Shown here: piece after piece, positions 14,601 through 56,500 of the stretch
Position numbering within the stretch: position 1 is the stretch's first letter
Layout: the number at the start of each line of letters is the position of its first letter
NCBI GenBank assembly: GCA_004154925.1
Contig: QJNS01000042.1
Coordinates: forward strand, 62,001-126,000
Source of the DNA: Monosporascus cannonballus
Lineage: Eukaryota; Ascomycota; Sordariomycetes; Xylariales
Length of the DNA: 64,000 nucleotides
Direction: 5' to 3'
Notes under the pieces: generated by a model
What the model was told of the DNA's origin: nothing
What the model saw: only the letters and a program-made list of their open reading frames with translations
The model's database searches: none
Program-made: the position numbers and the translations under genes

Positions 14601-14629
14601 CTAATAATAACGGAACCACCGGATATAAT

Positions 14630-22607: not shown

Positions 22608-22719
22608 AGCTATCAAAACCTAATAACAGCTGGGGGAATTCAGGGCTATATATATATGCGAATAATGGCTTATTAAGCTTTATCGTTCCATAATTAATCA
22701 GTATTTTCCATTATTAATC

Positions 22720-32476: not shown

Positions 32477-32757
32477 ATGGCGGGTCGAGTAGAAAAATCG
32501 ACGCGCCAATCCCGTACGAATTAGCGTCAGATTTACGATAACCGGTCTGCTTACATTTTCAAATTTGGGTTCGAGGTGTTGCCTTATTCCAGCTGCCTCT
32601 TATTCGGAAAATCTAAATGTTTTATGACGGAAAGTATTCCAAATTGTTATTATTGTACCCGTAATTAACGTTATTGCGACGGACTAGCGATTACTATGTT
32701 TTCGTTAGAGAATATCAATTCTGAACGCGACCATCTCCAAAAAAACGTCGTGCCGCT
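32477..32757 (+). pseudogene. Antisense Zn2Cys6/coiled-coil gene of element G, first part
   Basis: The frame starts at ATG 32477 (MAGRVEKST) and reads the best-preserved zinc cluster of the window: Tyr at 32585 (position 1), then Cys codons at 32594, 32618, 32645, 32654 and 32675. The spacing is x2, x7, x8, x2, x6, against CX2CX6CX5-12CX2CX6-8C for Gal4-type clusters. After it comes ITMFSLENINSERD, then a 7-A run near 32739-32746 with an apparent one-base deletion. Stops at 32522 (TAG) and 32666 (TAA) sit where Gln codons are likely. Element D interrupts at 32757; the frame resumes at 53176. Confidence 0.75.
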
Positions 32758-32824
32758 TATGACGGCTAGGCGGTTTAACCAACTATTAAACCTTAAGGCG
32801 ACGGGTTTATGTTGGCAGGAGTAT

Positions 32825-32986
32825 TGTCAGCTAGCCAGGTGTGCTATAGCACACCAAATACGGAAAGGTCACCTTCTGGTCGGAGTATATATACTCCGTT
32901 CCTAAGCTACACTAAAGTTGAACGCGTTACGAGAACGTACGCAATTGGCTGAATACAACAACAACTGATATCCCCTATATCTGATA
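32825..32986 (+). repeat. 5' LTR of copia element E
   Basis: It starts TGTCAGCTAGCC and ends TATATCTGATA, 162 bp. A TATATATA box-like run lies near 32888, and inverted repeats GTGTGCTATAGCACAC and GGAGTATATATACTCC are present. Confidence 0.92.
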
Positions 32987-33095
32987 ATTAAGAGTCTTAT
33001 TCGCTTAATTCGTATATATATTTATTGATCAGCTGTTACTAAGACGATATAAGCTGTATATCAATAGCAATTGTTAATACGTTCTAATATCAATA

Positions 33096-34350
33096 ATGGC
33101 GACCGTACCGTTAACGTCCTTAGTTATTTATAAAGGACCTAAGGACTGGGACCGCTTTAAGGGCGAATTCCAGTCTAAAACGTACGCGCTTGACATTTAG
33201 GACTTTATCGATCCTGATTAATTATTTCCGTAATTTGTCAAACCAATAGAACCCGATATAACCTCTTATCCCAAAAGACGAATTCGCCATATAGCATAAT
33301 CCAATATCCCATTATCGTCCTTATCGTCCGGAAAAACCACCGAAAAGATTAATCCTACGGAACACCTAACAAATACCCTTAAAATAACGACCGAAGGCAG
33401 ATAAGCCTATAATCAGGACTTTACGGCATATACCTTTAAGGATCGAAAATACGATATTTTCCGCAAAAACGTTAATAACCTAACGAAATAGGTCCTGGAG
33501 TTAGTATCTCCAGCGATCAGGGAAACGAATCTCCTCCTTGGAAAGAACTTACGGAAGTGGTACGCCAAACTGGCCGAATTAGGCAAGGTATACGATAACA
33601 AGCTCCTAATTAACACCTAACGAAAATATTGCGAAATATTAAAACAAGTTTCGAAATTTGGCAAAAGGTTAAACGAATAAATCGTAAAATAGCAAAAGAT
33701 CATAGCCTTAGGATAGCAACATAGTGTTCCAGAAACGAAAACGACGATTATATAGGTTAACGACCTGTATACAGTATTAGCCCCTATAATTAGGATATGG
33801 ATTACCATTTTCCAGATAATAAAAAAAACCGAGATCGATACCGGTACGATTAGTTTCCAAAAAATGGCAATTAACCTTCTGGACTATTAGGCTATGACCC
33901 ATCCCCCGTTAATATCGCGAAATATTAAGGCAACGTTTTTAACCTTTCATAAAGCTTTTGCAGACTTATCTGTTCAGGATAATTTTAATTAAGAAGAAAC
34001 TAAGCCTACTAATCCCCAATTGCGAGGAAAAACTCCGGTATAAAGGCAGAAACAAGGTAATCGTAAAGGTTTTTATTCGGACCGAAACGCTAACAAAAAA
34101 AAACGCAACGAATTAAATATTTAAAGTACTTATTATAAGGCTTATTTAAGCCCTTATCACATATTACCTCAGTGTTTTTATGCGTTCCCTAATAAGGCCT
34201 TAACGCGTTTCCGTTTTAATAACGAAATAATAAAGCTAATTTATTAACGATTTATCTCTGATTAATCCTTAAAGGAAAAAATCGAACGGCTATCAAAAAG
34301 TATAGAAAAGCTAATTGCCCGAGAGATTAAGTGATTCTCAAAGGGAGTAA
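33096..34350 (+). pseudogene. gag of copia element E
   Basis: The frame begins ATG at 33096 (MATVPLTSLVIYKGPKDWDR), about 110 bp after the 5' LTR, and reads as a typical copia Gag with the WDRFK motif early. A zinc-knuckle remnant near 34125-34190 shows the last His and Cys (PYHILPQCFY) with the first cysteines apparently changed to Tyr. Stops are TAA, TAG and TGA at former Gln, Trp or Arg codons. Confidence 0.8.
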
Positions 34351-37300
34351 GGCGAATATTAACGTATTTTCTGATCAGCTGTACGTACGGTACGATAAGC
34401 GTTTCGTTTTACCCCTTAAAAAATTTTTCCATCCTGGATTCAGGATCGACGATACATATATTTAACGTAATCAGCAGGTTTTTTAATTATAGATTTATTA
34501 TATAAGGCGACGGAATGTACGTAGGCAATAATTTCGTCCCGATTAATGGTTACGGAAAAGTAAATATATTATTTCGAAGCCCTGACGGTATAAGGGCGTT
34601 ACGTTTATACGATATAACCCATTATAAGGATTTCGCGTGCAATTTAGTATTATTCCGACAGCTCCGGAAAAAAGGTTACTGGTAAAATAATAAGGGGATT
34701 AACAATTATATTCAAAATAAATATAATTAGGTTGTTGCTACGTTAACAAATAAATTTAATCAGTTCGTTTTCGAGAATATCGACGCAATAACTCCTAACG
34801 CAACACTTGCGGCCTATAGACGAAACGTTAACTTAAGGACTGCGAAACCATTACGTACTGGCGATAAGACCATATGGCATTTACGTCTAGGTCATCTAGG
34901 CCTTAAAGTAATCGTTCAGTTTCCGTCCCATTTAAAAGGGGTGCAATTAAAAGGCCTTACGACGGTCGAATGCCAGGCCTGCGGCAAAACAAAGGCTAAG
35001 AGGCAAATACGTCGCATACCGAGAGAAAAAGCTTCCCGATCAGGCCAAAGAATAGCCATCGACTTTACGGACTTCGAGGAAAACCCGAAAGAATACAGAT
35101 ACGTAATGTTCGCTACCGACAGGTACTTAGGCTACATCTGGGATATCTACCTTAAGAACCGAAAACAGGATACCCTAATCAGCGCATTCCGATACCTCTT
35201 AAACGTCCTTAAAAACCAGGACAAAATCCTTCCACAGGTAATCGAATGCGATAACGAAATCTTAAAAAATTATCTGTTTCGAAATACGCTGCAATCGCCT
35301 CCTTTTAACATCAAATTGGAACCCTTAGCACCTTATACCCAAGCCCAGAACGGAGGTACAAAACGCTTAAGGGATATAATTAAGGAGAAAGCGACCGTAA
35401 TACGAAATAACGCTAAATTACCCTTATTCCTAATCGTATACATCTTTAAAGCAGCAGTGTACCTATATAACCGTACCCCTAAATACGGACTCTTTTAACA
35501 AAGCCCATACGAGATTTACTATATTTACCTGGCATACAAAAACGGTATTGCAATGCTTGATCGTAAGCCATAACAAGCCCACTTACGAACCTACGGCTGT
35601 ATGGCCTATGCTATAACGAAGACCGCTATGAAAAAAAAACAAAAGCTTCAAAAATTAAACCCAAAGGCTTAAATCGGCTACCTCGTCGGTTACCGATCAA
35701 CGAATATCTACGAAATCTGGAACCCTTTAACGAACAAGGTTATCGCCATTCGAAACGTATAATTTAACGAAAAAGTTACCTTTTCCGGAGATATTAAGGA
35801 CCTTAAGGACAACCTTTTCCATATTAGCGAAAACAAATTGCAACGCATCCTTCGACAAATATCTATACCTAATCAGGCTATAAGCCACCCAAATATACAT
35901 ATATAAAAGGAAAATGAAAACCTAAGCAGAACAATTCAACTACCGGTTAGACCGGAAGCTTTGGAACAAAATGGCACTGGCGCAAAAAACGCACAGGATA
36001 AGCAAAAACAAGCCTATTCGCAAAAGACTGATCACCCTTATACGACCGCTATATTCGAGCCATTCCTATCCCCTAAACCATTTTCTCCTCCAGCGTCTGC
36101 TCTGATAACTATTACAATCATTGCGCTGACGGAAAGAATAAAGGTAGCCTTAGGCTCCTGTCATACTGTTCAACCCAGAGTGACGGTAGAAAACGCAGGC
36201 ACCCCACGGGTTGTAAACGTAAGCTCCCCGTATATTCCGTACCAAAATAGTATTATGCGAAACGATCACAGGGTATAAAAAGCCGCCTTTAACGCAGGAC
36301 GGTTGGCCCATTCTATAAGGACTTTCGATAACCGGCCGGTAAACTGCAAAAGTTTAAAAAAGTTAATTATCCAAAATACGCGCCGCCCTGATCGGAAAGG
36401 CTTTAATCCATTAGTATACGAAAGGATACCTAAGTCGCAAAACCGGGTATATAAACGTAACTTACCTCTACCGCCGCGAGGCCATAAAAAGTTAAGTATA
36501 TACCCGCTAGGGCAAAGATTTCTAAAAGCCGAAAAAGCTTATTTACAAAGTTACAAAGATATGCAGTCCTAAAAGACCGTTAATTAATCTTTTACTAAAA
36601 GAAAACAGGTTCTAGGATATATGTAAATATACGTCTATAAATTCGACAAAAACGGTTAGCTGCAAAAGTACAAAGCACGACTTATAATGCGTAATAATTA
36701 ATAGCTGAAAAGCGCATATAACAACACATATACGTCCACGTTTACCGGAAGGTCCTTCCAAACGTTAATCGCCATCGCAGCCCGATTTAACTTAGAACTT
36801 AAACAGTATAACGCTGTTAACGCTTTCGTTTACGCGAATTTCCCTTACGACGTATATATAAAAACGCCCCCAGGGCACCCATATCGTGGCAAAGTCCTAC
36901 GGATCAAAAAGGCCCTATACGGCTTAAAAGAATTACCGTTACTGTGGCAGAAAGACTTTACCAACACATTAAAGGACTTAGGATTTGACCCCGTTCCTTA
37001 TAAGCCCTGTTACTTCCTTCGTTAAAAGGTGCTTTTTTTCTTTTACGTTAATAATATTGTCATTACGTACTACAAAAAAAGCTAACACCTCGTCGATCAG
37101 GCGATTTAACAAATTAAAGAATGGTATACCCTTTCAGAAAGTAAGGACCTTCAGTGGTTCTTTGGTATCGAAATAATCAAAAACCGTATTAAGCGAAAAA
37201 TCTAATTATCCCAATCTAACTTCATAAACAAGCTGGCTAACTTTGTCCCCAAAGAACGTCTAAATAACCTTCCAAATACTCCGATAATTACTTTTAAACT

Positions 37301-38138
37301 GTTACCTAACCCTAATCTGGCACATCCAAGTTCAGTTAATAAATATTAAAAGAAAATAGGTTCGATTCTGTACGTAACGGTTAACACCCGACCCGATATA
37401 TCCTTTGCCGTATCCTAATTAGCACGATTTAACTTAAACCTTAATACCGCATATCACGAAACGGCCGATCGAGTCATATTATACCTGATCGGAACCAAAA
37501 TATAAGCTCTGCAGTTCGGCGGCGAGAATTTAATGGACACATAGAGCGACGCTTCCTTTGCGGACAACATTATCGACCGAAAAAGTTCCCAAGCATATGT
37601 TATAAAGCTATTTGGAGGAATAATCGGGTAAAAAGCAAACAAGCAGAACACAGTAACTACTTCCACAACCGAAACGGAATTATTATCTCTTACGCAAGCT
37701 GCCAAAAAAACCCTTTTCACTTCCCGACTGATCATTGAATTGGAAATCGACTTAAAGACGGGACCGCTAAATATATAGTGCGATAATTTGCAGACCATAC
37801 GGCTTGTTAACGCGGATATCGTCCTCCTTATAACGAAACTACGACATGTTAATATATACAACCACTGGCTACGAAAGGCAGCAAAAAAGGACCTGATCAA
37901 AGTAGATTATATACCTACGGGTAATATGTTGGCAGATGGACTGACGAAAGCCCTACCAAAAAAAACCTTCAGGCATTTCAGAAAGCAGCTAGGATTGATA
38001 GATATCACGGAAGCCCTCGAACAGCGGAGGAACATTTTACGGGTGATTTCAAAGGAGGAATTAGCCGATCGGGAGGACTTAATCGCTGGAGGAAAGGTGG
38101 AATGGACAGCTGCAGCTCTAGGAAGTGGTGAAGAATGA
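34350..38138 (+). pseudogene. pol of copia element E
   Basis: Protease ILDSGSTIHI at about 34431 keeps its Asp. The pre-integrase block WHLRLGHLG is at 34875, and a zinc-type CQACG follows near 34975. An uninterrupted integrase stretch covers 34941-35498: Asp in AIDFTDF and CDNE are kept, but the catalytic Glu is Lys (AAA at 35361). RT shows LYGLKELPLLW near 36917 and YVNN at 37044-37055 (both Asp to Asn). RNase H has SDASFADN, TSTTETELLSLTQ and CDN; the tail DYIPTGNMLADGLTKAL is intact to the TGA at 38136. A purine tract precedes the 3' LTR. Confidence 0.9.
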
Positions 38139-38177
38139 TAATCAACGCCCTGAATGCTTTAAGGCGTTAAGGGGGTG

Positions 38178-38339
38178 TGTCAGCTAGCCAGGTGTGCTAT
38201 AGCACACCAAATACGGAAAGGTCACCTTCTGGTCGGAGTATATATACTCCGTTCCTAAGCTACACTAAAGTTGAACGCGTTACGAGAACGCACGCAATTG
38301 GCTGAATACAACAACAACTGATATCCCCTATATCTGACA
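38178..38339 (+). repeat. 3' LTR of copia element E
   Basis: 162 bp, starts TGTCAGCTAGCC and ends TATATCTGACA. It is preceded by the purine-rich AAGGGGGTG. Confidence 0.92.
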
Positions 38340-38451
38340 AGTATCGTAGGAATCTAAGCAATGGATACAGTAATCGTATTACGTCTTTTAATACCTTATT
38401 ATTATAAACGATTAGTATTGATAAATGTTGCAAACTGAAGTTATCTAAACT

Positions 38452-38655
38452 ATGGAATTAATGAACGTATATATTTTACTTTTTCTTGGCTTAATTACTT
38501 ATAATCATGCCGTTGGTGGTAATTACGATCATTTGGGATCACTTTTAATTACTGATAATCACTGGCTTGGCAGTGATTACCGCTACGTAACCCGGAAGGT
38601 AGCCTGTATGCTTCTGCCCGATCGTTTCTTAAGGCCGGAGCTTATCGGGTCGTAA
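38452..38655 (+). other. Small open frame antisense in the D LTR, conserved with H and K
   Basis: A 67-codon frame (start MELMNVYIL, containing DRFLRPEL) fills the U3 part of D's 3' LTR on the strand opposite to the element. The same frame is open at 59352-59555 in H and, in a variant, on the minus strand of K (about 22912 down to 22735). It ends about 90 bp before the antisense Zn2Cys6 gene. It could be an upstream frame of that transcript or simply conserved because LTR sequence is conserved. Confidence 0.3.
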
Positions 38656-38746
38656 TACGATCTCCCCTTTTCCTAAATTTTGCCCTTAAGATTTCTTTTC
38701 TTTTTTTTCTTTAGTTGGTCAGTATCCTTTTTCTTTACGTTTAGTT

Positions 38747-39335
38747 ATGTTGTTTCGCATTTCCAAAATTCGTTACGTTCCCCGTTCTTCTACCGTTTAT
38801 CGTATTAACCTTATAGAAGCTTTTGACGAATTTAATTATGAAATTATGCCTTGCTCTTATTATTTCTCAAAAAACATAAGGTATGAAATAATAGAAAACG
38901 TTTTAAGATATAAGGAATATATTAATCGAGGCCGATCTTATAATGGTACCGGCGTACCCATTTCTTCTCTATAAAATATTCGGTATAAGTATTAACGCTC
39001 AGAGCGCGAAAAAGCGCTTGCCGAAAAGCAATTATTAAAGTTTTAACGGCTTTATTTCGATGTTTAACGTAAATATTAGGAAAAAAATAAATAAAGCTTT
39101 TTTTTGTTTTATTTATTTGCGTAAATAAAAGGCGCTAGCATGTTCGAAGGGCGTTATTAGGGTATAACGTAAGTTTTAATTATTGGATAAGCTAAAGGAA
39201 CAAAAACGTCGGGAATAAAAGTAATTGGAGGCCGCCGTTGCGGTTATTACGTTAACGTAAGCCGTAGTTAACTGGCTTGATATCCCGGTTACTAATTGGT
39301 CGATTGTTAATTTTGGATACGCCCGTCGTTGCTGA
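38747..39335 (+). pseudogene. Antisense Zn2Cys6/coiled-coil gene of element D
   Basis: ATG 38747 lies 90 bp inside the 3' LTR edge. The first 75 codons are open (RISKIRYVPRSSTVYRINLI, then EAFDEFNYEIMPCS). Cluster positions: Cys at 38852, then Tyr codons at 38861, 38882, 38909, 38918 and 38939, with spacing x2, x6, x8, x2, x6. All five Tyr codons are TAT, one G-to-A step from TGT. The coiled coil follows (RSEREKALAEKQLLKF), with a one-base A insertion near 39080 and stops where Gln is expected. The frame ends at TGA 39333-39335, tail-to-tail with pol. Confidence 0.8.
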
Positions 39336-39515
39336 TAAAAGTTTTTTAACAAGCGTTGGGCGTTAATAAGGTTTTTGGCGGGTTCCCAGGTGTTCTCGGC
39401 GTCTGGGTGCTTTTTCCATTTGATCAGGTACTAAGTAAGTCCGTTTTGTTTTCGTATGTTAAGGATTTTTTCTATTTCGTATGCCTGTTTGTTTTTTATT
39501 TTTATATTATCCTAT

Positions 39516-39909
39516 TATTATGACCTAACGATCTTGGCTTCCCCAAAACGGTCGGAGAGCTTGGGCACTCAAGCCCGACCATGCCAAGAAGGTCACGTGA
39601 TTGGCTCAAAGGGCTTAAGGGCTTAGCGCCTTTGAGCCGGTTAAGCCAGCAGATGGTTTAAAGGGCTTAAGGGGCTTAAGGGCTTAAGCCGGTTAAGTAC
39701 CTCGAACCAAAACAAAAATATATACGTTCATTATTTCCATAATTTAGATAGTTTTAGCTCATAATAATAATTCGTTATCCAAGATATTTTTAATATTACG
39801 AAACGTAATACGTTATTATATTTATTATTTAGATTTTTATGATATTCCTATTAATATAAATACGTCGATTTAAGGTTTAATAATTAATTAAACCGTTTAA
39901 TTCGTTATA
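39516..39909 (+). repeat. 5' LTR of element C (U3 type c)
   Basis: It starts TATTATGACCTAACG. U3 carries repeated AAGGGCTTAAGGGCTTA units (39605-39700), unlike types a, b and d, while U5 matches the others. U3 is nearly unmutated; U5 is A+T-shifted. Confidence 0.9.
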
Positions 39910-42272
39910 CGTTACAAGTTTTAATTTAATAGTAACGTTAAATTTTAAATAATATTTAACATTATTAAAATATTAATTAGTATTTAAGAAACCTTTATTT
40001 AACAATTTTAGGTTCGAATTTTAGAACTGGAAAAAGAAGTTCGATCACTTAAGGTTACGTTATTTACTTAATCTTTTTTCGTTCGTATAAAGCCGAAAAA
40101 ACCAGAACCTTACGATAGAAAAAGTAATCTTTAAATTTTTTTAATTTAAGTACGAATTTATTTTTACTATTTAAATCTTAACGACTTAGCGGATATGGTT
40201 TTAATAGTAAAAATATGCCTAATAAGAAATACGGCTAATTAATTTAACCTTATTATAAAAAGTTTTTTAAAAATAAAAAAAGCAAATAAGGAAAATTTTA
40301 TTAATAAAATTTTTTTAATTTATATTAATTTCGAAAATAAAATGCGCAATAATTTCGGCAATCCGAATAAAAAACGATTAACGGCTTAATAACTCCTATA
40401 ATTCCGATAAAAAAAATTTGTATCCAAATACGCTATAATTTTCAAAAATTTTGCAATTAAGGCAGGATAAGAAAATAACAAAATTAATATTTTTATTAAT
40501 ATATTTTACAAAGGCTTAAAAAATAATATAAAAAATGAAATTATTCGGATTAAACGATTAATTATTTTAAATCGATCTATCGCAAAAATAATTACGATTA
40601 ATAATCGATAATTTAAAAAACGTTAAAAAAAAAGAATAACATGTCTTACGTTCGGAATATAAATTTAACGAGGGGAAAAAACGAGATATACCTTTTACTT
40701 TTTACGGAACGGAACCAGGTTTATGGAATTCGGCATTACCTATAGATAAAATTAGAACCAGATTAAATGCTTTAATTACGGCAAAATGGGATATAAGGTT
40801 TACAAATACAAAAAACCCATGAAATTACGATAAGATAATTTAACCCCGATATCGGAAAAATAGTCCAAAAATAATTAAAGAAATAATAGTAAAATTATTA
40901 ACATAATTTAAGCTAAGTACAAATTAAGTTTATAGCAAAAAATCCAATAAGAATTATTACGACAAGAAATTTGACGAAAAATATAAAAAATTGAAAAACT
41001 AGTTCGATAAATATTGCAAATATAATAAAAGGCGTTATAAAGATTATTATACGAATACCGGGATTAGATAAAAAAACTTTATCCCGAAATACTTAATTAA
41101 TACGGTAAAATATACGCTATACACTGTCGACGACAAAAATATCCCGATTACGAAAAATAAAAATAATATATTTACGTACGAATTACCCGAATATATTATA
41201 AGGGATTCGAATTTTTAAACCGTATTGGGCAAAATAAAAATAATAAGCAATAATATCGATAATTTCGAACTATAACTCCAGAAAATATTTAATAATTAGC
41301 CGAAATAAAAAGTTGGCCTAAAAAAAAATAATACCCGTAAAAAGCCTTTGTTGTTATTATGGATAATGCAATTATTAAATGGAAAAGGAGTTAATCCAGC
41401 GTACGGTAACAAAGCATTATTAAAAAGTTATTACGGATTTTTATTTTTAATTAATATTTATTACGGATCCTTAAGAAAAAAAGGCCATTAACGAAAAAAT
41501 ACATTAATTTATAAAGAATTTTTGGAACGATAATTAAAATGATATATAATGGGATGTAATCGTAAATATAAGAAAACAATTTATTGGATAGGAAGAAAAA
41601 TTAAAATAAAATTAAGAGAAATTAATATAACTTAAAGAAACAATACGCCGATAATAACGATAGATATAGCAGCTTAACGCGTTATATATAAAAATATAAA
41701 TAAAGTTCGACAGATTTAAATAGGAGTTAAAAAAAGTTATTTATAAAAAAGCCGTAAGATAACGAAACTTAAAGAAATTAAAGGGAATTCCCAAAAAAGG
41801 TTTTAAATGCGATAATAGAAAACGTTAACGGCCTTATTATTTTGGATATACGAATTAAAACGTATTAATATACAGTAATAATGGACTACGGAGCTCTGGG
41901 CGGAAATTATATTATACCGGATATAATTAATAAATTTAAATTATTATGGAAATATAAGTTAAAACTTTATATAACGACAAATGCCGAAAATTAGGAATTC
42001 GCTTACGATAACAGAAAAATTATACGCGAAATTAATTATTTCGAAATTTTTGTTTAAGGACGATATTAAATAATTAATTTCGATATAATTTTATACGGGA
42101 ATTACGATATTATCTTAAAATTGTTATAAATACGTTAATACGGTATTTTAATTAACGGCGGAATTAGACAGGTAAAATTTATTTTATTTTTTGTTAATAA
42201 ATAAAAAAAAATTAAGATCTTAATATTCGATCGATTATAACGATAAATATAGGCATAAGGATACGATAAATA

Positions 42273-43669
42273 CAGTGGGGGTGCAAAAGTCTCGGTAAAT
42301 TTCTGCAAGCTTTACAAAAACGCGTATTTCTTTCACTTTAACGCCAACACCCTTCATACTTTAATCATAAGTAAACAACTTAATTTGGGTTTAATTATTT
42401 CGCGAAAAAAATAGTTACCTTATACGAGAACGAAATGGAAGTCCGAAAAAGATTTAAGTGACGGCTTTACCGAAATCGCGAGAAAATACGGAATATTCCC
42501 TATTACCGTCTGCGGCGTTTATAATCGCTATACGCGTTAAAATTTAGCCTAATTTTCGTTACGTTCGGATCGCCCATATAAATTTCGGCCGGTTTATAAA
42601 AAGTATTTATGGCGATTTATTAATCTTAATCCTTTTATATCTATCGTAAAACTTACTGAATTATGTTATCCACATATATTTAGGTAAATTTTAACGTAAT
42701 GGCTTCGCTGGAAAAGGATAATACATTAATACGTACTTTAACGTCCGTTTTTAATTTCGGAATATGCGAAGCAAAGGTTTTCTTAAACTTTGGAATACCG
42801 TAATAAGCTTCCCAAATAATAACGGAAAGTTTTATCTAGCAACGAAACGAATATAAACCGTAATTACGGTAAACAGGCGCAATAGATTTTCCGCCGAAAA
42901 GATCTTTAATATGTTATCCTTTTTAACCTTAATTATTACGCCAATTATTAATTGTTTTCCGTTAAATAAAAAAATCCCGTTTATTACCCATATATATATA
43001 GCCCCGGTACAAAAAAACCGGCCAAACGCAAATATTTTGGGATAATATCCGATATGGAAAACGGAACTTCCTAATAACCCTTAATGGGGATCCCGAAGCC
43101 GCTCAGGACAAAATAACCGGCCGCGTTTATCGTAATTACCTTAACGAATACCTCCTCGCATACCTCGATGGCAACTTTATTTTCATACAAAATAACGTTC
43201 CCGTTTATATCGCCCGAATCGTAAAGGAATAACTTTAAATGTAGGCCGTCGAAATGCTGGAATAACCCCTATATTCGCCCGATTTAAACCTTATCGAAAA
43301 TATATGGAAGCTATTAAAAAAACGTATCTAAAAAAAAGAACCGAAACTTAGGTTATCCGGCAATATGTAGGAAGCATTAAATTTATTTATTGCTATTGTA
43401 ATTATTATATAGGAAAAATTCGTAAAAGGTATGCTAAATAATCTAATAAATAACATACTAAGGCAGATCTAAATTATAATTACAATTTAGGGCTGGTATA
43501 CGAAATATTAAAGTAACTTACTGTATACGCAATCCATTTATCTATAAATAATTAAAATCGCTAGCAATCTTATTAAAAGTTAATAAAGAAACGTATAAAT
43601 AAAGTTATGAAGGTGGTAGTTGGAAATATGGGGTGTAGAGACTAAACCTAGACTTTTGCACTCCGACTG
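42273..43669 (+). mobile_element. Tc1/mariner-type element F
   Basis: This 1397-bp element has TIRs of at least 24 bp with few mismatches: left starts CAGTGGGGGTGCAAAAGTCT, right (complement) starts CAGTCGGAGTGCAAAAGTCT. It is flanked by TA at 42271-42272 and 43670-43671. Removing it restores the alignment of C with A and B. It is moderately RIP-mutated. Confidence 0.93.
42423..43430 (+). pseudogene. Tc1-like transposase of element F
   Basis: The plus frame begins with a helix-turn-helix region, DLSDGFTEIARKYGIFPITV then CGVYNRYTR (42450-42540). The middle has NGKFYLATKR near 42827 and RVNRRNRFSAEKIF. The second catalytic block reads QNNVPVYIA at about 43188 (Asp to Asn), and the third, SPDLNLIENIWKLLKKRI-like, is at about 43275-43320 with its Glu kept (GAA 43296). 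TAA/TAG stops break the frame in several places, and the spacing fits a DD34E enzyme. Confidence 0.85.
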
Positions 43670-46654
43670 TAACTTATTACCCAAAAAAAATAAAATACAA
43701 AAAAAAAAACGGGTATTAAAGAAAAATACGACGTATTGTTACTATTATTAAAGCGAAATTAAAGTAACTGAATAACGATTTGGAATAATAAGAATAATAA
43801 TTTAAGGAATTAGAAAATTTAACTAATATATTACCATAATATCATAAATACGTAGAATTTTTTTAAAAAAAAGCTTAATACAAAATTATTAATATATAAC
43901 GAATAAGATTATAAAATAACCCTTAAAAAGATTTTCGATAAAATTTTATCTTATTTATAATTTTAATAAAAACGAATTACGTATTTTCAAAAAATATTTG
44001 AAAAATCGGTTATAAAAAATGGATTTAACTTTCGAAATTACCGGCAAAATATCCGATATTTTTCGTACTTAAGAAAAATAAAAAACTGCGATTTATAATT
44101 AATTATTAATAATTAAATAATATTACAGTCAAAAATCGAATATTATTATTTTTAATTACGGAAATAAAAAACCAATTTTACGGAACCAAATAATTTATAA
44201 TATTCGATCTTAAAAATAAATATAACCTTATTAAAATCGAAAAAAAATACAAATAAAAAATAGCTTTTAAAATAAAACATAAATTATCTAAATATTTCGT
44301 TATATTAATAGGACTTACGAAGATATTAATAATTTTCTAGCAAATAATTAATTACGTATTACGAAAATACCTTAATATTTTCGTTATTTGCTATTTCGAC
44401 GACATTTTTGTGTTTTCGGAAATAAAGAAAATATATACAGGATACGTTTATAAAGTTTTTTAAGCTTTATAAAACGTAAAATTACTTATTAATATAAAAG
44501 AAAATTAATTCTATATATAAAAAATGGAAAGTCTGGAATATATTATTATGTTAAAACATATTAAAATAAACCTTAAGAAAATCGTTATAATTATAAAATA
44601 ATAAATATTAACGATAATTAAAAAAATATAAGTATTTCTTGGATTCGCTAATTATTATAAAAAATTTAGTCGAAATTTTAATAAAATAATTTTACCTTTA
44701 ACGAATATTAAAAAGAAAAAACTTTTTTAAATAAATACTAAATACAAAAAAAACATTTTAAAATATTAAGGACGTAATTATTAACGAATTAATATTAATT
44801 ATATACGATTTAAACCGTTCCGTTAAATTAAAAACCGATATTTCGGATTATGCGGTAAACGTAATAATCGGATAACGAAATAATTAAGGCAAATTGCATT
44901 TTATTATATTTTTTTATATAAGTAAAAAAAAGCCGAATTTAATTACGGTATTCCAAATAAAAAGCTTATTGCCATTATTATGGCATTTTAAAAATTTAAG
45001 TATTCCTTAAAAGAAAATTTATATTAAATTAAGGTTTATACGGATGATCAAAATTTTACCAGATTTATTATAACCAAAAAAATTACAAAATAATAATTTC
45101 GTTATGCAGAAAAATTGGCGAACTTCGATATCGTTATTATTTATAAAAAAGGATTAAAAAATAATAAAACAAATACTATAAATAAGTAATTAAATTTCGA
45201 AAAAAAATAATTAAAATTAATCATATAATTTTTGATATTATTATAAAAAGATATTTATATTTATAATAAATTACGATAATTGGGGTAATATCTTGCGATA
45301 TATATTAAAAAATTTAATAATATAATAACGGTTTTCCAAAAAATTAAAGAACGAATAAAATATAAATTTCAGAAATATATTAGAAATATTTAGTACGAAA
45401 ATTATACGAATGTTAATTACATAAATATTTAAGGATTTACAAAATTTTAAAGTAATTTTAACGTACATATTTTTTTAAAATAAAATTAATAATATAGAAA
45501 ATTATATAATAATACGATATTTGCGTTAAAACGAAGGCTTAACGATATAAATGAAACGGAAAATTATAATTATTATTAATTATAAAGTAATTATAATATT
45601 TAATTATATTCGATTTTATTATTAAATTTTCTATATTAAAAATTTTAATTATAAAAATATATTATGACAATATGTTCGTAATCGTCGATCGATTTACGAA
45701 AACTTTTTATTTTTTATTATATTATAAAGATATAAACCCCGAATAATTAATATATATTTTTTTAAAATATATTTTTAATGTATTTAAATTATTAATAAAA
45801 ATTATATTAAATAAAAAATTAATATTTGTATCAAAGTTTTAATAAGGCCTTATAATATAAATTAATTTAAATTATATATTATTTAAAGTATTTAAATTAT
45901 AAATTAATAAATAAATAAAATAAATAATTTAAATTTTAAAAATTTATGTACGATATTATATTAATTACGAACAAAATAATAAATTGAAAAAATTTTAATT
46001 ATTTGGTTAATTTATAATATTAATTATTACGAAAATATTTAAACGATATTTACGAACATAAATTTTAATATTTTATTTAAGGTTAACAAAAAAGCGCGTA
46101 ATAATAATTTAATTAATATTAAAATAATTTTTATATTAAAATAATTATAATAATTATATAAAAAAATAAAAACAAAATTAAAATTCGTACAAAATCAAAT
46201 AAATAAATATTATAATTAAAAAAAGTTAAAAGGATTAATTTCCAAACAGGGGGAAATAGTTTTTTTTATGACAAAAAATATTTAAATAAAACGACTTAGC
46301 AAAAAACTCGATTTCAAATATATCGGTCCATACCAAATAGCCAAAAAATCTCAAAAAATAATTATTAATTAAAACTTTTACCGAAAGTTAAATTTTACTT
46401 AATTTTTTATATTTTTATATTCGAATTAACAACAAATATAATTAAAATATATATAATATAATACGATATAAAAATAAAAAACGAATAAATATATAAAATG
46501 GAAAAAATCCTTAATATACGGAAAGAAAACGAACTTACCTAATACCTAATTAAATGGAAAAAGTATTCGGATTCCGAAAACACCTGGGAACCCGCCAAAA
46601 ATCTTATTGGCGTTTAATACCTACTAAAAAACTTTTATTAAAAATAACGGGCGT

Positions 46655-47176
46655 ATTTTAATTAAGGGTCGACCAGTTAATAGCCGGAATATCGGGCTAA
46701 TCGGCTGCGGCCTGCATTAACGTAATAGCTATAACGGCGGCCTCCAATTATTCTTATTCTTTTTCGAAACGCTTAAATTTCTTTGTCGTTTTCGCACTTT
46801 AAATATTACGACGAAATATTTTAATTTTACGACGACGAAATAACTTTCCTTATTTTTACAAGCGGTTTAAAATTATTTATAGCATTATGTAAGGCTTTAT
46901 GAACCTATTCCTTTTTGTGTTTTAAACGGTTTTCCTTATTAAAAACTTTTTATATTCAAATTCCGAAAAGCTAAATAAGTCGCAAAAATTATCGTATTAT
47001 ATATAACGGGCGTATTTCCCAGAATTGCGGTACGTTTTGAAAGGTCCGCTAACAAAATAATAACAAGAATAAAAATTTTTTTAAGGCATAATAAAATCTA
47101 ATAGTATAATACGTTTTATAAGAATGAAAACGTTAATACATTTACGGGAACGGGATTTTTCGATACGACCTAACAT
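46655..47176 (-). pseudogene. Antisense Zn2Cys6/coiled-coil gene of element C
   Basis: The frame starts at ATG 47176-47174, 90 bp inside the 3' LTR (MLGRIEKSRSRK, close to the start in G). The second half of the cluster reads Y-x2-Y-x6-C, with cysteines 4 and 5 changed to Tyr; the first half is too diverged to align with certainty. SFSEFEYKKFL and a basic coiled-coil region follow. This is the most diverged copy. Confidence 0.6.
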
Positions 47177-47266
47177 AATAAATATAAAAAAGGAAAAGTT
47201 ACTTACCGGAATTAACAAATAAACGAATAATCTTTAAGGATAAAGATGTTAAAAAGGAAAAGATTC

Positions 47267-47660
47267 TATTATAACCTAACGATTTTGGCTTCCCCAAAAC
47301 GGTCGGAAAACTTGGGCACTTAAGCCCGACCATGCCAAAAAGGTTACGTGATTGGCTTAAAGGGCTTAAGGGCTTGGCGTTTCTAAGCCGGTTAAGCTAG
47401 TAAATAGCTTAAAGGGCTTAAAGGGCTTAAGGGCTTAAGCCGGTTAAGTACCTCGAACCAAAATAAGAATATATACGCTTATTATTTCCATAGTTTAAAT
47501 AATTTCAGCTTGCAATAACAATTCGTTACCCAATGCACCCTTGGTATTACGAGACGTAATACGTTACTATATTTATTGCTCAGATCCCCACGATATTCCT
47601 GCCAACAAAAACCCGTCGACTTAAGGTTTAATAGTTGGTTAAACTGCCTAGCTCGTTACA
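47267..47660 (+). repeat. 3' LTR of element C
   Basis: 394 bp, starts TATTATAACCTAACG and ends TAGCTCGTTACA. Its U5 is far less mutated than that of the 5' copy. Confidence 0.9.
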
Positions 47661-50600
47661 CCTATGCCATATGCACCTTAATCGTATTTGCTGCTAATTT
47701 GAATAAGGAAACATGAAAAATTAGGTGGAATTTAACTTTTAATAAAAGTTCCAATTAATAATTATTTTCTGAAAGTTCCTTAGCGATTTTATATAAACCG
47801 ATATATTTAAAATCGAATTTCTTGCTGGGTTCTTTTGTCTAAATGTTTTTTGTAATAAGGAAAATTATTTCCCCTTTTTCGAAATTTAATTTTTTTAACT
47901 TTTTTTGGTTATAATATTTATTTATTTAATTTTATATAAATTTTAATTTTATTTTTATTTCTTAATACGATTATCGTAATTATTTTAACGTAACAATTAT
48001 TTTGATATTATTTAAACTATTATTACGCGTTTTTTATAAACCTTTAAAATAAAAATAAAATTTACGTTCGTAAATATTATTTTAATATTTTCGTAATAAC
48101 GAATATTATAAGCTAATTAAGTAATTAGTAATTTTTCAACTTAATTATTTTGTTCGTAATTAATATAATATTATAAATAAATTTCCAAAATTTAATTTAT
48201 TCGTTTTATTTATTTATTTATTTATAATTTAAATACGTTAAATAATTAATAATTTAAGTTAATTTATATTATAAGGCCTTATTAAAAGTTTAATGCAAAT
48301 ATTGATCTTTTATTTAATATAATTTTTAATAGTAATCCGTATATATTAAAAACAGGTTTAAAAAATATATATTAATTATTCGGCATTAATATCTTTATAA
48401 TATAATATAAAATAAAAAGGTTTCGTAAATCGATCGACGATTACGAAAATATTATTATAATATATTTCCGTAATTATATTTTTTAATATTAAAAATTTAA
48501 TAATAAAATTAAATATAATTAAATATTATAATTATTTTGCAGTTAATAATAATTATAATTTTCCGTATAACTTATATTATTAAGTTTTTATTTTACCGCA
48601 AATATCGTATTACCAAATAATTTTTTATATTTTTAATTTTATTTTAGGAAAATCATATATATTTTAAAATTGTTTTAAAATTTTATAAATTTTTAAATAT
48701 TCTTATAATTAATATTCGTAAATTTTTGGTATTAAATTTTTTAATATCTTTTTAAAATTTATATCTTATTTATTTTTTGGTTTTCTGGGAAACCGTCGAT
48801 ATGTTATTAAATTTTCTAATATATATTATAAGGTATTACCGGAATTATAATAATTTATCGTAAACGTAAATATTTTTTTATAATAATATTAAAAATTATA
48901 TAACTAATTTTAACAATTGTTTTTAAAATCTAATTATTTATTTAAAATATTTACTTTATTATTTTTTAATTTTCTTTTATGGATAATAATAAAGTTAAAG
49001 TTCGCTAATCTTTTTATATATTTTAATTATTATTTTGTAAATTCGTTAATTGTAATAAATTAGGTAAAATTTTGATAATCCGTATAAAGTTTAATTTAAT
49101 ATAAAGTTTTTTTTAAAAAATATTTAAATTCCCGAAATTTTACATTAATAGCCATAATCTTTTATCTAAAATATTATACTTAAATTTAATATTTTTTTAA
49201 TTTGAACGAAAAAAATATAATAAGGTATAATTTGCTTTAATTATTTCGTTATCCGATAATTACGTTTAATACGTAATGCGAAATATCGGTTTTTACTTTA
49301 ACGGGGCGGTTTAAATCCTACATAATTAATATTAATTTATTAATAATTATGTCGTTAATATTTTATAATATTTCTCCGTATTTGGCATTCATTTAATTTC
49401 TTTTTGTAAAATTCGTTAAAAGTAAAATTATTCTATTAAAGTTTCGAATAACCTTTTTATAAAAATTAATAAATTTAAAAAATACTTATATTTTTTTAAC
49501 CGTAATTAGTATTTATTATTTTGTAATCATAACAATTTTTATACGGTTTATTTTAATCTATTTTAAAATCATAATATATTTTAAATATTTTACTTTTTAT
49601 ATATAAAGTTAATTTTTTTGGCGTTAATAAATACTTTTACGTTTTATTAAACTTAAAGAACTTTATAAATATATTTTACGTATATTTTTTTATTGTTAAG
49701 AAAATAAAAATATCGTCGAGATAAAAAACGATGAAAATATTAAGGTATTTTCGTAAAACGTAATTAAATATTCGTTAAAACGTTATTAATATATTTATAA
49801 ATCTTATTAATATAACCAAATCCTTAAATAATTCGTATTTTATTTTAAAAGTTATTTTTTATTCGTATCCTTTTTTAATTTTAATAAAATTATATTCATT
49901 TTTAAAATCAAATTCTGTAAATTATTTGGCTTTATAAAATCGGTTTTTTATTTCCATATTTAAAAGGAATGGTATTCAATTTTTAATAATAATATTATTT
50001 AAATATTAAGACTTAATTATACATTGTAATTTTTCGTTTTTCTTAAGTACGAAAAATATTAAATATTTTATTAATAATTTCGAATATCGAAAATATCCTT
50101 TTTATAACCGATTTTCCAGGTATTTTTTGAGAATACGTAATTCCCCTGCGTTAAAGTTATAAATAAAGTAAAATTTTATCAAAAAACTTCTTTTAAAAGT
50201 TATTTCATAATTTTATTTATTATATTCTAATAATTTTGTATCGAATTCTTCCGTAAAAAACTATTCCTATTTATAATATTATGATAACATATTAATTAGA
50301 TTTATAACTTTTAAGGTTATTATTTTTATTAATTTAAATCGTTATTTAATTACTTAAATTTCGTTTTAATAATAATAAATATATATCGTATTTTTCTTTA
50401 ATATCCGTTTTTTATGTTTTATTTTTATACGTAATAAAACACTTATTATACTTTTATATTTGTATTCGTTATTATTATCGATTAAATATTAAATTTTTAA
50501 CTTGTTTTTATTTATTAATAAAATATAAAGTAAATTTTCTTTAGCTAATTCTATTATTAAATAAAATTCCGTATTAACGTATTTATAATAATTCTAAGAT

Positions 50601-52797
50601 TATATCGTAATTTCCGAATAAAACGATATCGAAATTAACCGTTTAGTATCGTCCTTAAATAAAAACCTTGAAGGTTTTAATTTCGCATATAAATTTTTTA
50701 TTATCGTAAGCGAATTCCTAATTTTTGGCATTCGTTGTTAAATAAAATTTTAATTTATACTTTTATAACAATTTAAACTTATTAATTATATCCGGTATAA
50801 TATAATTTCCACCTAAAATTCCGTAATCCATTATTATAATATATTAATATGTTCCGATTCGTATTTTAAGGTAATAAAGTTATTAACGTTTCTTATTATT
50901 GCGTTTAAAACTTTTATTAGAAATTCATTTTAATTTTTTTAAATTTTATTATTTTGTTATTTTTTTATAAATAACTCTTTTTAAATTTTTATTTAAATTA
51001 GTCGAATTTTACTTATATTTTTTCGTTTAACGCATTATGTTATTATATTTATCGTTAATACCGGCGTATTATACCTTCGAACCGTATTAATTATTTCTAA
51101 TATTTTTATAATTTTTTTTATCGAATAAATTATTTTTTTATATTTACGATTATATCCTATTATACGTCGTTTTAATTATCGTCCTAAAAATCTCCTATAA
51201 ATTAACGTATATCTTTTTAATAACCTTTTTTTCGTAAGGATTTATAATAAATATTAATTAAAAATGGAAGTTCGTAATAATTTTCTAATAATATATTTTT
51301 ACCGTATATTAAATTAACTTTTTTTCCGTTTAATAATTATATTATTCATAATAATAAAAAAAGTTTTTTTATAAATATTATTTTCTTTTATGTTAATATT
51401 TTATTTCGGCCAATTACTGGATATTTTTTGGGCTTATAATTCGAAATTATCGATATTATTATTTATTATTTTTGTTATAGCCGGTACGGTTTAAAAAATC
51501 GAATTTCTTATAATATATATGGGTAATTTATACGTAAATATGTTATTTCTAGTTCTTATAATCGGGATATTTTCGTCGTCGACACTATATAACATATATT
51601 TTGCCATATTGATCGGAAATTTTAAAATAATTTTTTTTGTTTAATTCTGGTATTTGCGTAATTATTTTTATAACGTTTTTACCGTAATTATAATACTTAT
51701 TAAGTTAATTTTTTATTTTTTTATATTTTTCGTCGAATTTCTTATCGTAATAATCCTTATTAAATCTTTTACTTAAGGCCTATTACGTATTTAACTTAAA
51801 TTATATTAATAACTTTATTATTATTTTTTTCATTATTTTTAAATTATTTTTTCGGTATAAAAATCTAATCATCTTATCGTAACTTTTTAGGTTTTTTATA
51901 TTTATAAACTTTATATTTTATTTTGCCATTATTAAAACATTGAATCTGGCTTTATTTTTATTTATAAATAATGCCGAATTCCATAAGTCCTGGCGTTATT
52001 TCGTAAGAAATAAAAGGTACGTTTCGTTTTTTCCCTTAATTAAACTTATATTTTAAATGTAAAATAAATTATCCTTTTTTTTATCGTTTTTCAAATTATC
52101 GGTTATTAATCTTAATTACCTATACATTATATTGGTCCAGCGCAATTAATTATTTAATCCGAATAATCTTATCCTTTATATTATCATTTAACTTTTTATA
52201 AAATTTGTCGATAAAAATATCGGTTTCGTTAATTCCTTATCCGGCTTTAATTATAAAATTGTTAAAAGTTATAATATACATAAATATAAATATTTTTTAT
52301 CGGAATTATAAAAATTATTAAAATGTTAATCGTTTTTTATCCGGATTACCGAAATTATCGTATATTTTATTTTCGAAATTAGTATAAATTAAAGAAATTT
52401 TGTTAATAAAACTTTCTTATTTATTTTCCTCATTTCCAAAAAACTTTTTATAATGGATTTAAATTAATCGGCCGCATTTTTTATTAGGTATATTCCTTTT
52501 GTTAATACCATATCCGTTAAATTATTAAGGTTTAAAAAGCGAAAATAAATTCGTGCCTAAGTTAAAAAAATTTGAAGGTTGTTTTTTTCATCGTAAGCTT
52601 CTGGCTTTTTTGACTTTATACGGGCGAAAAAAAAATTAGGCAAATAATATAACCCTAAGTTGTCGAACTTTTTTTTCTAATTCCCGAATTCGAGCCTAAA
52701 ATCATTAAATAAGGGCTTTTTAAATATTGGTCGATATTATATTAATATTAAATATCGCTTAAAGTTTAACGGTTTTATTAAATAAAAATTTATAACG

Positions 52798-53170
52798 TAT
52801 AATAACTAAATAATTTTATTAATTATTAAATCTTAAATCGACAGATTTAAATTAATAGGAATATCGTTAGAATTTAAGTAATAAATATAATAATCGTATT
52901 ACGTTTTTTAAAATCTTATTATTACAAACGATTGATATTAATAAATGTTATAAGCTGAAATTATTTAAACTATAAAATTAATTAATATATATATTTTTTT
53001 AACTTAATTATTTGTAATTACGCCGTTGGTAATAATCACGATCACTTAAGATCACTTTGGATTATTGATAATCATTGGTTTGGCAGTGATCACCGTTACG
53101 TGACCCGAGAGATGGCCCGTATGTTCCTGCCCGACCGTTTCTTCAGGCCGGAGCTTGTCGGGTCGTAATA
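52798..53170 (-). repeat. 5' LTR of element D
   Basis: 373 bp. The inner edge TATAATAACTAAA is fully A+T-shifted while the outer 110 bp, ending GGTCGTAATA, is GC-rich and nearly unmutated. This is a clear gradient within one LTR. Confidence 0.9.
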
Positions 53171-53175
53171 CCGCT

Positions 53176-53529
53176 GAAAACGAGCTTATAGAACTGCAGC
53201 GAATGTTTCAAAAGGAAATATCAAAAAAAATAGCCAAGTTGCAACGCTTACGTCATTAAAAAAACATTTTGAAGGAGAAAAGGTTGCAGCTGCTTTTCGA
53301 AAATTACGAGTTGGACCAACTAAAGAAACGGGAAAGGATGGAAAAGGAGCGATATCGTATGGAAACGGAGCAAGCGTAACTTGCTTCAGAAATAAACGCC
53401 ATAATAAAGGCGTCTATTTTTTTCGACTGGAACGTCGCAAGGTTGCATTTAAGCGGAGGACCGTTATTGCTTACGACGTTAACTGCGCTGAAAACGGTTG
53501 GTCAGGGTTCTGCCGGTAAAACGTCTTAA
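53176..53529 (+). pseudogene. Antisense Zn2Cys6/coiled-coil gene of element G, second part
   Basis: This continues the frame cut at 32757: ENELIELQRMFQKEISKK, then AKLQRLRH, a TAA (53257-53259), LKEKRLQLLFENYELDQL, KKRERMEKERYRMETEQA, a TAA, then SEINAIIKASIFFDWNVARL and GGPLLLTTLTALKTVGQGSA, ending TAA at 53527-53529. Heptad-like charged residues indicate a coiled coil. Each internal TAA falls where Gln would fit. It ends immediately where the pol chromodomain of G, on the other strand, begins. Confidence 0.75.
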
Positions 53530-56500
53530 CCAGATATATCGCATTCGTTAAGTGATTAAATGGTTCCTATATGTTTTTTTTAAATAAATAATTTTTCCAT
53601 TTAATTAAGTACTGGATTTTATTTTTAACTATTTTCGAATCCAGTATTCGTTCGATTTCGTATTCGTCAAAATCTTTTTCGAATTTTAAGTCTGTTTCTA
53701 ACGGGGCGTTTTTGGGTATTGGTTCCAGCAGAAAGATATAGAAAATAAGGTGTATTTTTATGTTATTAAGTAACGATTGTCGGTAATTAATTTTAGAAAT
53801 AATTTTATCAATTTTAAACGGGCCAAGTTTTTTGAAATCGAACTTATTGTGAAGTTTTTTTGTTTTAATTTAAAAGATATTCGAAGTTACGTTTTGTTTT
53901 TGGCGTAATAAGTAAACCTTATTTCCTTTCGTTAAAATTAATTTTTTAATTCTTTTTTTATTATAATATTGGGTTATCCGTTATTAAAGGAATCGTAATT
54001 CGTTTTAGAAATAGGTTTGAATTATTTTGATTTCTATTATTAATATTTTTGCTTTTGAGGCAATTATAATAATCTTTAATACAGTATTAAACGGTTATTT
54101 AAATCGTTTTGGTTTTGCTTTATATTCGTATATAGCTATATAAGAAAATACGGCCATATTTTCGTTAACAAATATGTTATAAGCGATTTATGCTAATAAT
54201 AAAAGCTTTACCTAATTATTCTGTTAGTGATTAATATAATTTTGGAAATATTGTTCTAAGGTTTGGCTTAGTTTTTCGGTTTAGCCGTCCATTTAGGGAT
54301 AATAAGCTATTAAAAATTTAAGTTTAGTACCTATTTATTTGAAAAAACTGGTATAAAATTTTAAAATAAATAAAGTATTTTTGTCGGAAATAATCTTTTT
54401 TGATATATTATATTTGTTAAGGTAATATCTGATAAAGGCATAGGCCAATTATTTTGCCGTTACGTTTTTTTTAAAAGGTAAAAAATACCCATATTTGGTA
54501 AGTCTGTCGATAATCACCCATATTCCGTCGTATTAAACTTTAATAACTGCGTTCTTAAATAGAAATAAGCTAATAATAAAATTTTAAGTTATGGTATTCC
54601 ATATTTTGTTAAGAATATTAGTGGGTTATAGTAGCCCGTAAGGCTTATAACGTACTGCCTTAGTCTTATTATAAATATTATAATTCTTTATTATTTTCTT
54701 AATTATTTGGCGTAATTCTGGAAAGTTATATTTTTCTTATAATCGTTTAGTAATTTTGAAAATTCCTTAGTATCCGTATAATAGGTTTTCGTAAAATTCA
54801 TTTACGAACTATTCCTATTAATCCTTTGGAATATAAACCTTATTATAGTATAGTAATTGGTTTTTTGGTTACCCTTTTAGTTGCTAAACCTTTTTTTATT
54901 CTTTCGTATTATAAAAATTTCGGAACCGCGTTAAAAGTTCGGGAAATAGTTTTTTCAGGATTTCGTATAATTATATAATGTTATTTTGGTTATATTATAA
55001 CATTTATATACTTTTTTTGCGGATTTTAGGATTGTAATTACCTTTATAATTCAAAATATCCATTTAAATATTTTATTAATATAATATATTTTAAAATTAA
55101 ACTTAAATAAAAAAATATTTATTTTGATGTTATTTATTTAATTTTTAAGCTTTTATAAATCGGTTAAGGTTTTTGTAATTAAAATAAATATCGAAAGGTT
55201 TTTTCGTTCCGTTAAAAAAAATTCCTATTCCTTAAAGGCGTTAATAATTACCAATAATTTTTTGTCGTAAATCTGGTATCTGAATTCTGCATTCCGGAAT
55301 GTTTTTAAGTAATATGCCACTAGGTACCATTTGCCGTTATCTTTTAGTTATTTTAAAACGGCATTTAATACGTAATCTAAAGCATCCGTTTTTAAGCGTT
55401 TCCTTTTACTTACGTTAAGTAATCTTATTATGGGTTTATTGGTAATTATATTTTTTAATACCTAGAACATTTCCTTTATGTTTTCTGGAAATTTAAACTC
55501 CTTTTTTATGTATTTTTTGGTAATGAGTTTCGTTAACGGCCTAATGATATTTCCGTATCCCTTAATTAGGCCGCGTACGTAACCCGTAAATCCTAAGATG
55601 TGCCGGATATCTATAATAGTCGCCTTGTTAGGGATAAGCCAGTTCTTAATTATTTCCATTTTAAAATGTTAAATCTGAATTTGGCCGGAAGTAAAAATAT
55701 ATCCTAAAAAATCTAGTTTTTGTATGTACCATTTCCTTTTGACTGGGTTAACTCGGATATTTATTTTATTTAGCGTTCGGAACACTTAGGTAATTTGCTT
55801 TTTGTATTTTGCGAAAATTTCGGAATAAATATAAATATTATCGAGATAAACAAATATAAACTTATTTAGAAATTTTCTGAAAATAATTTTAACTAGGCGT
55901 TGGAAACTGGCGGGAGCATTAATAAATCCTATAGGCATTATTTTGTTTTCGTAAAGTCCATGTATTGTTCTAAATGCCGTTTTTTATTTTTTTTTGGTTA
56001 TTTTTATACGGTAATAACCGTTTCGGAAATCAAGTACAATAAACCATTTTATTTTGCTAGCGTTTTTTTAACGTATTTATTAAGGTTAAAGGATATCCCT
56101 TTTTAATTATGACATTATTTAATTATCGGTAATCGATTATTTTGCTAAAAACTAAATCTTTATTTTCGTTAATTTTTTGCTTTTTATCCTTGGGTTTTGG
56201 TACTATGAAAACGGGGTATCTAGCGAGAAAATTAAAGGGTTAAATGTATTTTTTTAAAAATTAAATTAAATGTTTTCTATAAGGCCTTTAACTTATTAAG
56301 GTTTATGTAATAAATTTTGTGAAGTTTGGGATAATATCTTTCTTTAATAGGTATCCGATAGTTTTATTAATTATAAGGCGGTAATTTGTAATTTTCTTTA
56401 TCCTTAAATAATTTTTTAAATCCTTAATACTTTGGTAGTACCGTAAAGGTTTGATTAGGAATCCGTATTTCCTTTATAATATAGCAAATTTCTTAATTAT

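Follow-up and report, generated by a model that had tools for sequence, protein, structure and literature searches.

A predicted zinc-cluster gene antisense to pol in chromodomain retrotransposons of Monosporascus cannonballus

The stretch analysed here, hereafter the window, comprises 64,000 nucleotides of Monosporascus cannonballus DNA (contig QJNS01000042.1, positions 62,001 to 126,000) and derives from a genome of 88.8 Mb in 618 contigs. It holds the retrotransposons A, B, C, D, G and H, in which an antisense frame of about 200 codons lies between pol and the 3′ long terminal repeat (LTR). This frame was found to be a real accessory gene that is selected as a protein, and the observation of such a frame in the original prediction was thereby confirmed. 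The product is predicted to be a protein of about 200 residues with a basic N-terminus, a Zn2Cys6-like binuclear cluster, a charged helix of about 90 residues and a variable tail. Such a zinc-cluster layout, together with selection at the protein level, gives a fungal antisense gene a concrete, testable function.

To follow the gene beyond the window, four types of the frame served as queries against the genome; each had at least 150 matches, the best 150 being taken from 1736, 3101, 487 and 1576 first-look candidates. With the G-type query, 136 of the best 150 rows matched the gene, most of them ending at residues 87-105, and 14 spanned residues 80-118 only and represent a different repeat that is inserted into G. 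The position relative to pol (integrase, chromodomain region or reverse transcriptase) was then scored at 66 loci, which make 65 distinct places as L049 lies within L073 and is counted twice here and in the phase-bias and cysteine tallies below. At 63 of the 66 loci (62 of the 65 places), all found by the antisense gene itself so that copies without it would escape the count, the frame was convergent with pol, lying between pol and the 3′ LTR on the opposite strand as an antisense open reading frame (ORF). The other three, namely L009 and L039, both interrupted copies from the window, and L056, had no pol in the DNA examined, and the tail-to-tail order that had been proposed was thus upheld. 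Every one of the 66 loci had a match among database proteins with E no higher than 1e-3; the best matches of subfamily-1 loci were Monosporascus proteins and those of subfamily-2 loci came from other fungi or from entries without an organism name. A chromodomain was detected at the end of pol in both subfamilies (Pfam Chromo, E 1.6e-12 in L071 and 7.4e-15 in L069, with stops read as X). With this chromodomain at the C end of the integrase the elements are chromoviruses, i.e., chromodomain Gypsy elements, mutated by repeat-induced point mutation (RIP).

In element G the antisense frame runs on the + strand from an ATG at 32477. The codon at 32585 is TAT (Tyr) and those at 32594, 32618, 32645, 32654 and 32675 encode Cys, all exactly as predicted. 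The frame is not open, being interrupted by one TAG and one TAA within the 119-codon query stretch, and tblastn recovered the gene in two pieces, with query residues 2-87 at 32483-32743 and residues 90-215 at 53149-53526. The N-terminal part (32477..32752, +; from codons and tblastn) belongs to subfamily 1 and follows CX2CX7CX8CX2CX6C with the first Cys now Tyr; its end is cut by a nested block of about 20 kb (32753..53148, edges approximate, no strand) that contains D, C and others. Beyond the block, the C-terminal part (53149..53529, +; tblastn) carries the charged helix and the conserved tail. The outer coordinates given in the original prediction agree with this split, which went unmentioned in its text. 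The pol of G, consisting of the integrase/chromodomain end and pieces of reverse transcriptase, lies beyond the C-terminal part at 53600..56363 on the − strand (tblastn), tail-to-tail with the antisense gene. In the ranges tried, we found neither a 5-bp target duplication around the nested block nor LTR pairs for G and H. An open frame of 185 residues at window positions 34941-35498, with a weak match to the integrase core (rve; Pfam E 2.8e-5, below the cut-off), represents a further retroelement in the nested block.

Open-frame relatives were sought among database proteins. The six closest to the L071 frame all came from Monosporascus species. The L069 frame led to two Thyridium curvatum proteins, one of which, used as query, gave 22 proteins including both. 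These relatives, known as protein sequences, come from Thyridium, Corynascus similis, Verticillium dahliae, Apiospora rasikravindrae, Cryphonectria parasitica and entries without an organism name; 18 are 180-222 residues long and four are named 'partial' by their source. Their alignment (A1) contains the conserved block VMPCS.C......C.M......C..C.RRGRSCDG, behind which come the charged helix and, in the tail, a motif resembling DVIDW. Nineteen of the 22 follow CX2CX6CX8CX2CX6C without deviation, a spacing within the general Zn2Cys6 pattern, CX2CX6CX5-12CX2CX6-8C; P0019 has Tyr at the first Cys site, and in P0028 and P0008 the domain is partly or wholly missing. The spacing CX2CX6C..CX2CX6C, on which the original prediction had made itself depend, is therefore present in the relatives. 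Among the hypothetical proteins annotated in fungi, some small ones with six cysteines may likewise come from transposon genes.

RIP turns Cys into Tyr, since TGY codons hold a CpA target on the other strand, and Tyr at a cysteine site was accordingly read as a RIP product. Cys or Tyr occupied 184 of 186 cysteine cells in 31 subfamily-2 copies and 180 of 180 in 30 G-type loci (29 distinct; L070-L072 left out), or 358 of 360 distinct cells in the own-genome copies. When A, B, D, G and H were tallied in the window, Cys was retained at five of the six sites in G, four in B, three in H, two in A and one in D, and every other site was Tyr. G is thus the best preserved of these five copies and each site is still Cys in at least one of them, as had been claimed.

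A 17-column insert was observed in P0017, P0022, P0026 and P0028 at a common place directly after the zinc domain (A1), and P0027 agrees with P0014 at every residue before this place and departs from it afterwards. Judged from the sequences, this looks like an intron read through unspliced by gene callers; lying in the antisense direction, such an intron would be retained when the sense RNA is retrotransposed. A scan of viral_contigs gave no relative of the antisense protein.

Selection on the frame was then examined. As RIP produces transitions and not transversions, only transversions were counted. Within subfamilies the shared transversions were too few (subfamily 2, n=5, p 0.82; subfamily 1, n=10, p 0.024; singletons unbiased), and pairs between subfamilies were used instead. 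In these, transversions gathered at codon position 3, as in L069 against L037 (13, 10 and 46 at the three positions, p 2.9e-8). Among the pairs listed for the whole frame and for pol, i.e., those with at least 25 transversions, 18 of 20 between-group pairs of subfamily 1 had p < 0.05 for the whole frame (the other two 0.056 and 0.061) and 10 of 10 between-group pairs of subfamily 2 had p ≤ 0.0015; the pairs have a common history and do not count as independent. The listed within-group pairs, three of subfamily 1 and six of subfamily 2 (p ≥ 0.37), showed no phase bias; within subfamilies the copies differ mostly by post-insertion changes. The test was repeated outside the overlap with pol in a nucleotide-only alignment, where the bias was again obtained (e.g., 10, 8 and 39, p 1.3e-7) in five of five subfamily-2 pairs (p 1.3e-7 to 0.0016) and three of three subfamily-1 pairs (p 0.0013 to 0.044). 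The 5′ flank, used as control, was biased in none of six pairs. Pol, as positive control, was biased (p < 0.05) in 15 of 15 listed subfamily-1 pairs and in only three of 18 listed subfamily-2 pairs, perhaps from the lesser divergence of pol in the latter. The fourfold-site ratio was 0.9-1.0 for some between-group pairs of subfamily 1. Since the position-3 bias extends outside the pol overlap and is not found in the flank, the frame was selected as a protein; the codon-level constraint whose absence was to count against the original prediction is seen between subfamilies.

The overlap with pol was located in L071, a less mutated copy. Its antisense stop lies at 3223-3225 and the pol frame, broken by two stops, continues past it, so the 3′ ends of both genes overlap; given this overlap, the conserved tail of subfamily 1 may be constrained from both strands. 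At L071:3226-3350 the pol frame was open past the chromodomain, overlapping the 3′ end of the antisense gene. It was also observed that the pol ends of L073 (with L049) differ from those of L043, L045, L050 and L053 by many phase-biased transversions, whereas the antisense genes do not, as if recombination had paired one antisense subfamily with two pol lineages.

The zinc-cluster fold and the long helix are predicted from structure models. With the model of a 96-residue relative, Foldseek returned four chains at E ≤10, all of them Zn2Cys6 (Leu3 three times and AlcR) with weak scores, and all 17 entries listed by VIA-align were Zn2Cys6 proteins; the domain of Hap1 solved by nuclear magnetic resonance superposed at 1.9 Å over 39 residues and 1cld at 1.7 Å over 33. 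The Pfam family PF00172 was matched by 15 of the 22 relatives at E 1 or less. Other results fit the family less well. The profile search recommended in the original prediction fell short of the curated cut-off, the best score being 18.1 of 21 bits (E 0.0028, P0015). Foldseek found no Zn2Cys6 structure with the full-length model. The Arg that follows the second Cys and the Pro that precedes the fourth do not vary among six zinc clusters of the host (of eight, two with stops being left out) and are absent from the relatives. Finally, the G subfamily has X7 in the first half of the cluster, outside the general pattern. Furthermore, hhalign against the six host clusters gave weak, out-of-register similarity, and the relatives carry an RRGR run in the second half of the cluster, a non-canonical basic pattern. 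Scanned one by one against Pfam, five mutated frames matched no zinc cluster, sequence searches of the PDB gave coiled-coil and unrelated chains only and no Zn2Cys6 chain, and an NCBIfam scan gave nothing relevant.

The original interpretation is therefore supported in part. For a conserved antisense protein gene with six cysteines in a zinc-cluster layout and a long charged helix, the support comes from the open-frame relatives, the codon-level constraint and, more weakly, the fold, whereas the Pfam score and the X7 of the G subfamily do not place it formally in the Zn2Cys6 family. The coiled-coil prediction that had been suggested gave a divided answer. All 18 relatives tested (four of the 22 being too short) had a best heptad contrast above the shuffle mean, but only six exceeded 95% of shuffles; a dimeric coiled coil is plausible from these sequences. 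Compared with fungal Zn2Cys6 regulators (PF00172: Gal4, Hap1, Leu3, Put3, Ppr1), the antisense protein shares the six-Cys spacing and a long helix past a short linker and is similar in predicted fold; it differs in lying below the Pfam cut-off, in its basic pattern, in its size of about 200 residues and in being element-borne and antisense.

Antisense genes at this place are already known, and the apparent novelty lies in the zinc-cluster identity, the breadth and the constraint. A 2020 review (PMC7264820) names such genes between pol and the 3′ LTR in the plant elements Grande and Retand and in the fungal element Boty of Botrytis (brtn). Four papers attribute brtn, an antisense gene in Gypsy elements of Botrytis cinerea, to Zhao et al. 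2011 (PMC8365987, PMC7264820, PMC5987419, PMC4227169), and one of them includes integrase and chromodomain in the Boty gag-pol (PMC4227169). By these descriptions, brtn resembles our gene in being antisense, between pol and the 3′ LTR, in a fungal chromodomain element (PMC7264820, PMC4227169). The plant group aORF-3R (Grande gene23, RIRE2, Retand ORF4, PvRetro13) is alike in place, orientation and presence in most family copies and differs in its hosts and in having SMC-like (PvRetro13) or transposase 28 (Retand) domains and not a zinc cluster (PMC7264820). Save for these two domains, the review describes no clear database similarities for antisense ORFs, gives the function of 3′-LTR antisense genes as not known, and mentions an antisense promoter of human T-cell leukaemia virus (HTLV) (PMC7264820). 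The antisense frames of plant LTR elements that the original prediction mentioned are thus on record. Its statement that no fungal Zn2Cys6 one was known agrees with the literature searched, but a fungal antisense gene, brtn, has been reported at this place (PMC8365987, PMC7264820). No prior report of an antisense zinc-cluster gene in LTR elements was found within the literature and terms searched, and a term search of a Verticillium transposon paper (PMC3441728) showed 'antisense' to be absent from its text.

Because the gene starts next to the LTR and the protein resembles transcription regulators, control of its own LTR is the most likely function, and the elements may carry their own control protein. 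Antisense transcription would begin at a promoter in or beside the 3′ LTR; the protein would dimerise and enter the nucleus, and the dimer would bind the LTR/U3 of the element, controlling sense transcription. The antisense regulator expressed from the 3′ LTR of HTLV-1 is a DNA-binding-type dimer protein (bZIP), and the manner of action would be like that of this regulator. Both would be antisense genes by a 3′ LTR encoding a DNA-binding-type dimer; the viral protein differs as a bZIP of an animal retrovirus, and no homology is claimed. We infer zinc binding, dimerisation, a DNA target, antisense transcription and regulation or targeting, and the full chain, in which an element-borne dimeric nuclear DNA-binding protein controls transcription from its own LTR, is put forward tentatively. 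More speculative is the wider idea that chromodomain retrotransposons of Sordariomycetes have long carried, for the age of the subfamilies, their own antisense Zn2Cys6-type dimeric LTR-binding factor; this would be the retrotransposon counterpart of a retroviral antisense regulator, and a possible source or derivative of the host's large Zn2Cys6 transcription-factor family.

Next after control of the own LTR, and unlikely in itself, comes a role in integration, in which the zinc-cluster protein would join the preintegration complex and give the chromodomain integrase DNA specificity or access to the nucleus. The gene is paired with a chromodomain-type pol, and the review proposes that plant antisense ORFs act in the preintegration complex or the nucleus, noting that Grande GENE23 localises to the nucleus (PMC7264820). 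However, antisense expression would part the protein from Gag-Pol packaging, and no sequence feature was seen linking it to integrase. We consider improbable a nucleic-acid chaperone or silencing suppressor whose six-Cys domain would bind RNA or DNA irrespective of sequence, shielding element RNA or countering RNA interference; the RRGR run and the missed Pfam cut-off would fit this, but the listed matches of the 96-residue model are sequence-specific DNA binders and a long helix follows the domain. Antisense RNA as the function, through double-stranded RNA or promoter interference with an incidental frame, is strongly disfavoured as the sole function: regulation at the RNA level by antisense transcripts of such elements has been discussed (PMC7264820, PMC10648671), but the bias among codon positions, present beyond the pol overlap and absent from the flank, and open frames conserved across genera, speak for a protein. 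Equally doubtful is the idea that one element recently took up a host Zn2Cys6 gene; the host genome has at least 111 Zn_clus matches, but at least three subfamilies in one genome, relatives in several genera and the weak, out-of-register similarity to the host clusters stand against it. An ancient capture is possible. That the frame is a chance antisense reading of the conserved pol tail or AT-rich noise, to which only the overlap of its last part with the pol end lends itself, is refuted by the location of most of the gene outside pol, the open frames in other fungi and the phase bias with a negative flank.

The other copies in the window were delimited mainly by tblastn, and A, B, D and H all matched the same query protein as G. 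Subfamily-2 antisense genes lie at 21661..22128 (A, −), 14573..15169 (B, −; codons and tblastn, match 14573-15109), 38747..39308 (D, +) and 59636..60102 (H, +). In A and B the integrase and chromodomain region of pol are convergent with the gene (20469..21458 and 13563..14441, both +), and pol of H was found at 60346-61256 (−). The LTRs of A (3′ 22216-22615, 5′ 15802-16201) are 80% identical and those of B (3′ 15243-15603, 5′ 8928-9288) 85%. From the frame start to the LTR edge there are 88 bp in A and 74 bp in B by LTR pairs, and about 89 bp in D and 79 bp in H by repeat edges, so that the predicted distance of 70-95 bp inside the 3′ LTR holds in the four copies measured. Against 28 database proteins, the best matches were non-Monosporascus proteins for A (E 1.2e-14), B (1.0e-19), D (5.3e-18), H (3.4e-6) and the N-terminal part of G (8.7e-13), and Monosporascus protein P0005 for the C-terminal part of G (1.1e-37).

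The same frame had been predicted in A, B, C, D and H, which tblastn bore out for all except C. The C frame (46760..47176, −, lower edge approximate; pol pieces at 45603-46554, +, by tblastn) gave no match to the 28 proteins at E 0.01 and was placed indirectly, as a diverged subfamily 3, via its genome relatives. It was matched by 150 of 150 scored places, the best 150 of 495 candidates in the genome. Of five C-type relatives chosen for open frames, three reached E 5e-10 or lower against the database relatives, a fourth 4.7e-4, and the fifth had no match at 0.05, these E-values being computed for a tiny search space.

Elsewhere in the genome, two adjacent Zn_clus matches were observed within one open frame of 827 residues (G000:C130:120311-120586). 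At window positions 2601-2672, a tRNA match from Rfam (32.3 bits), not reported by ARAGORN, is perhaps a tRNA-derived repeat or a decayed tRNA. Finally, two overlapping + ORFs (247 and 227 residues) in a GC-rich island at window positions 5224-6616 matched the PDDEXK_12 nuclease (Pfam E 7.6e-11 and 1.8e-25); together they resemble a single gene split by a frameshift or an intron.

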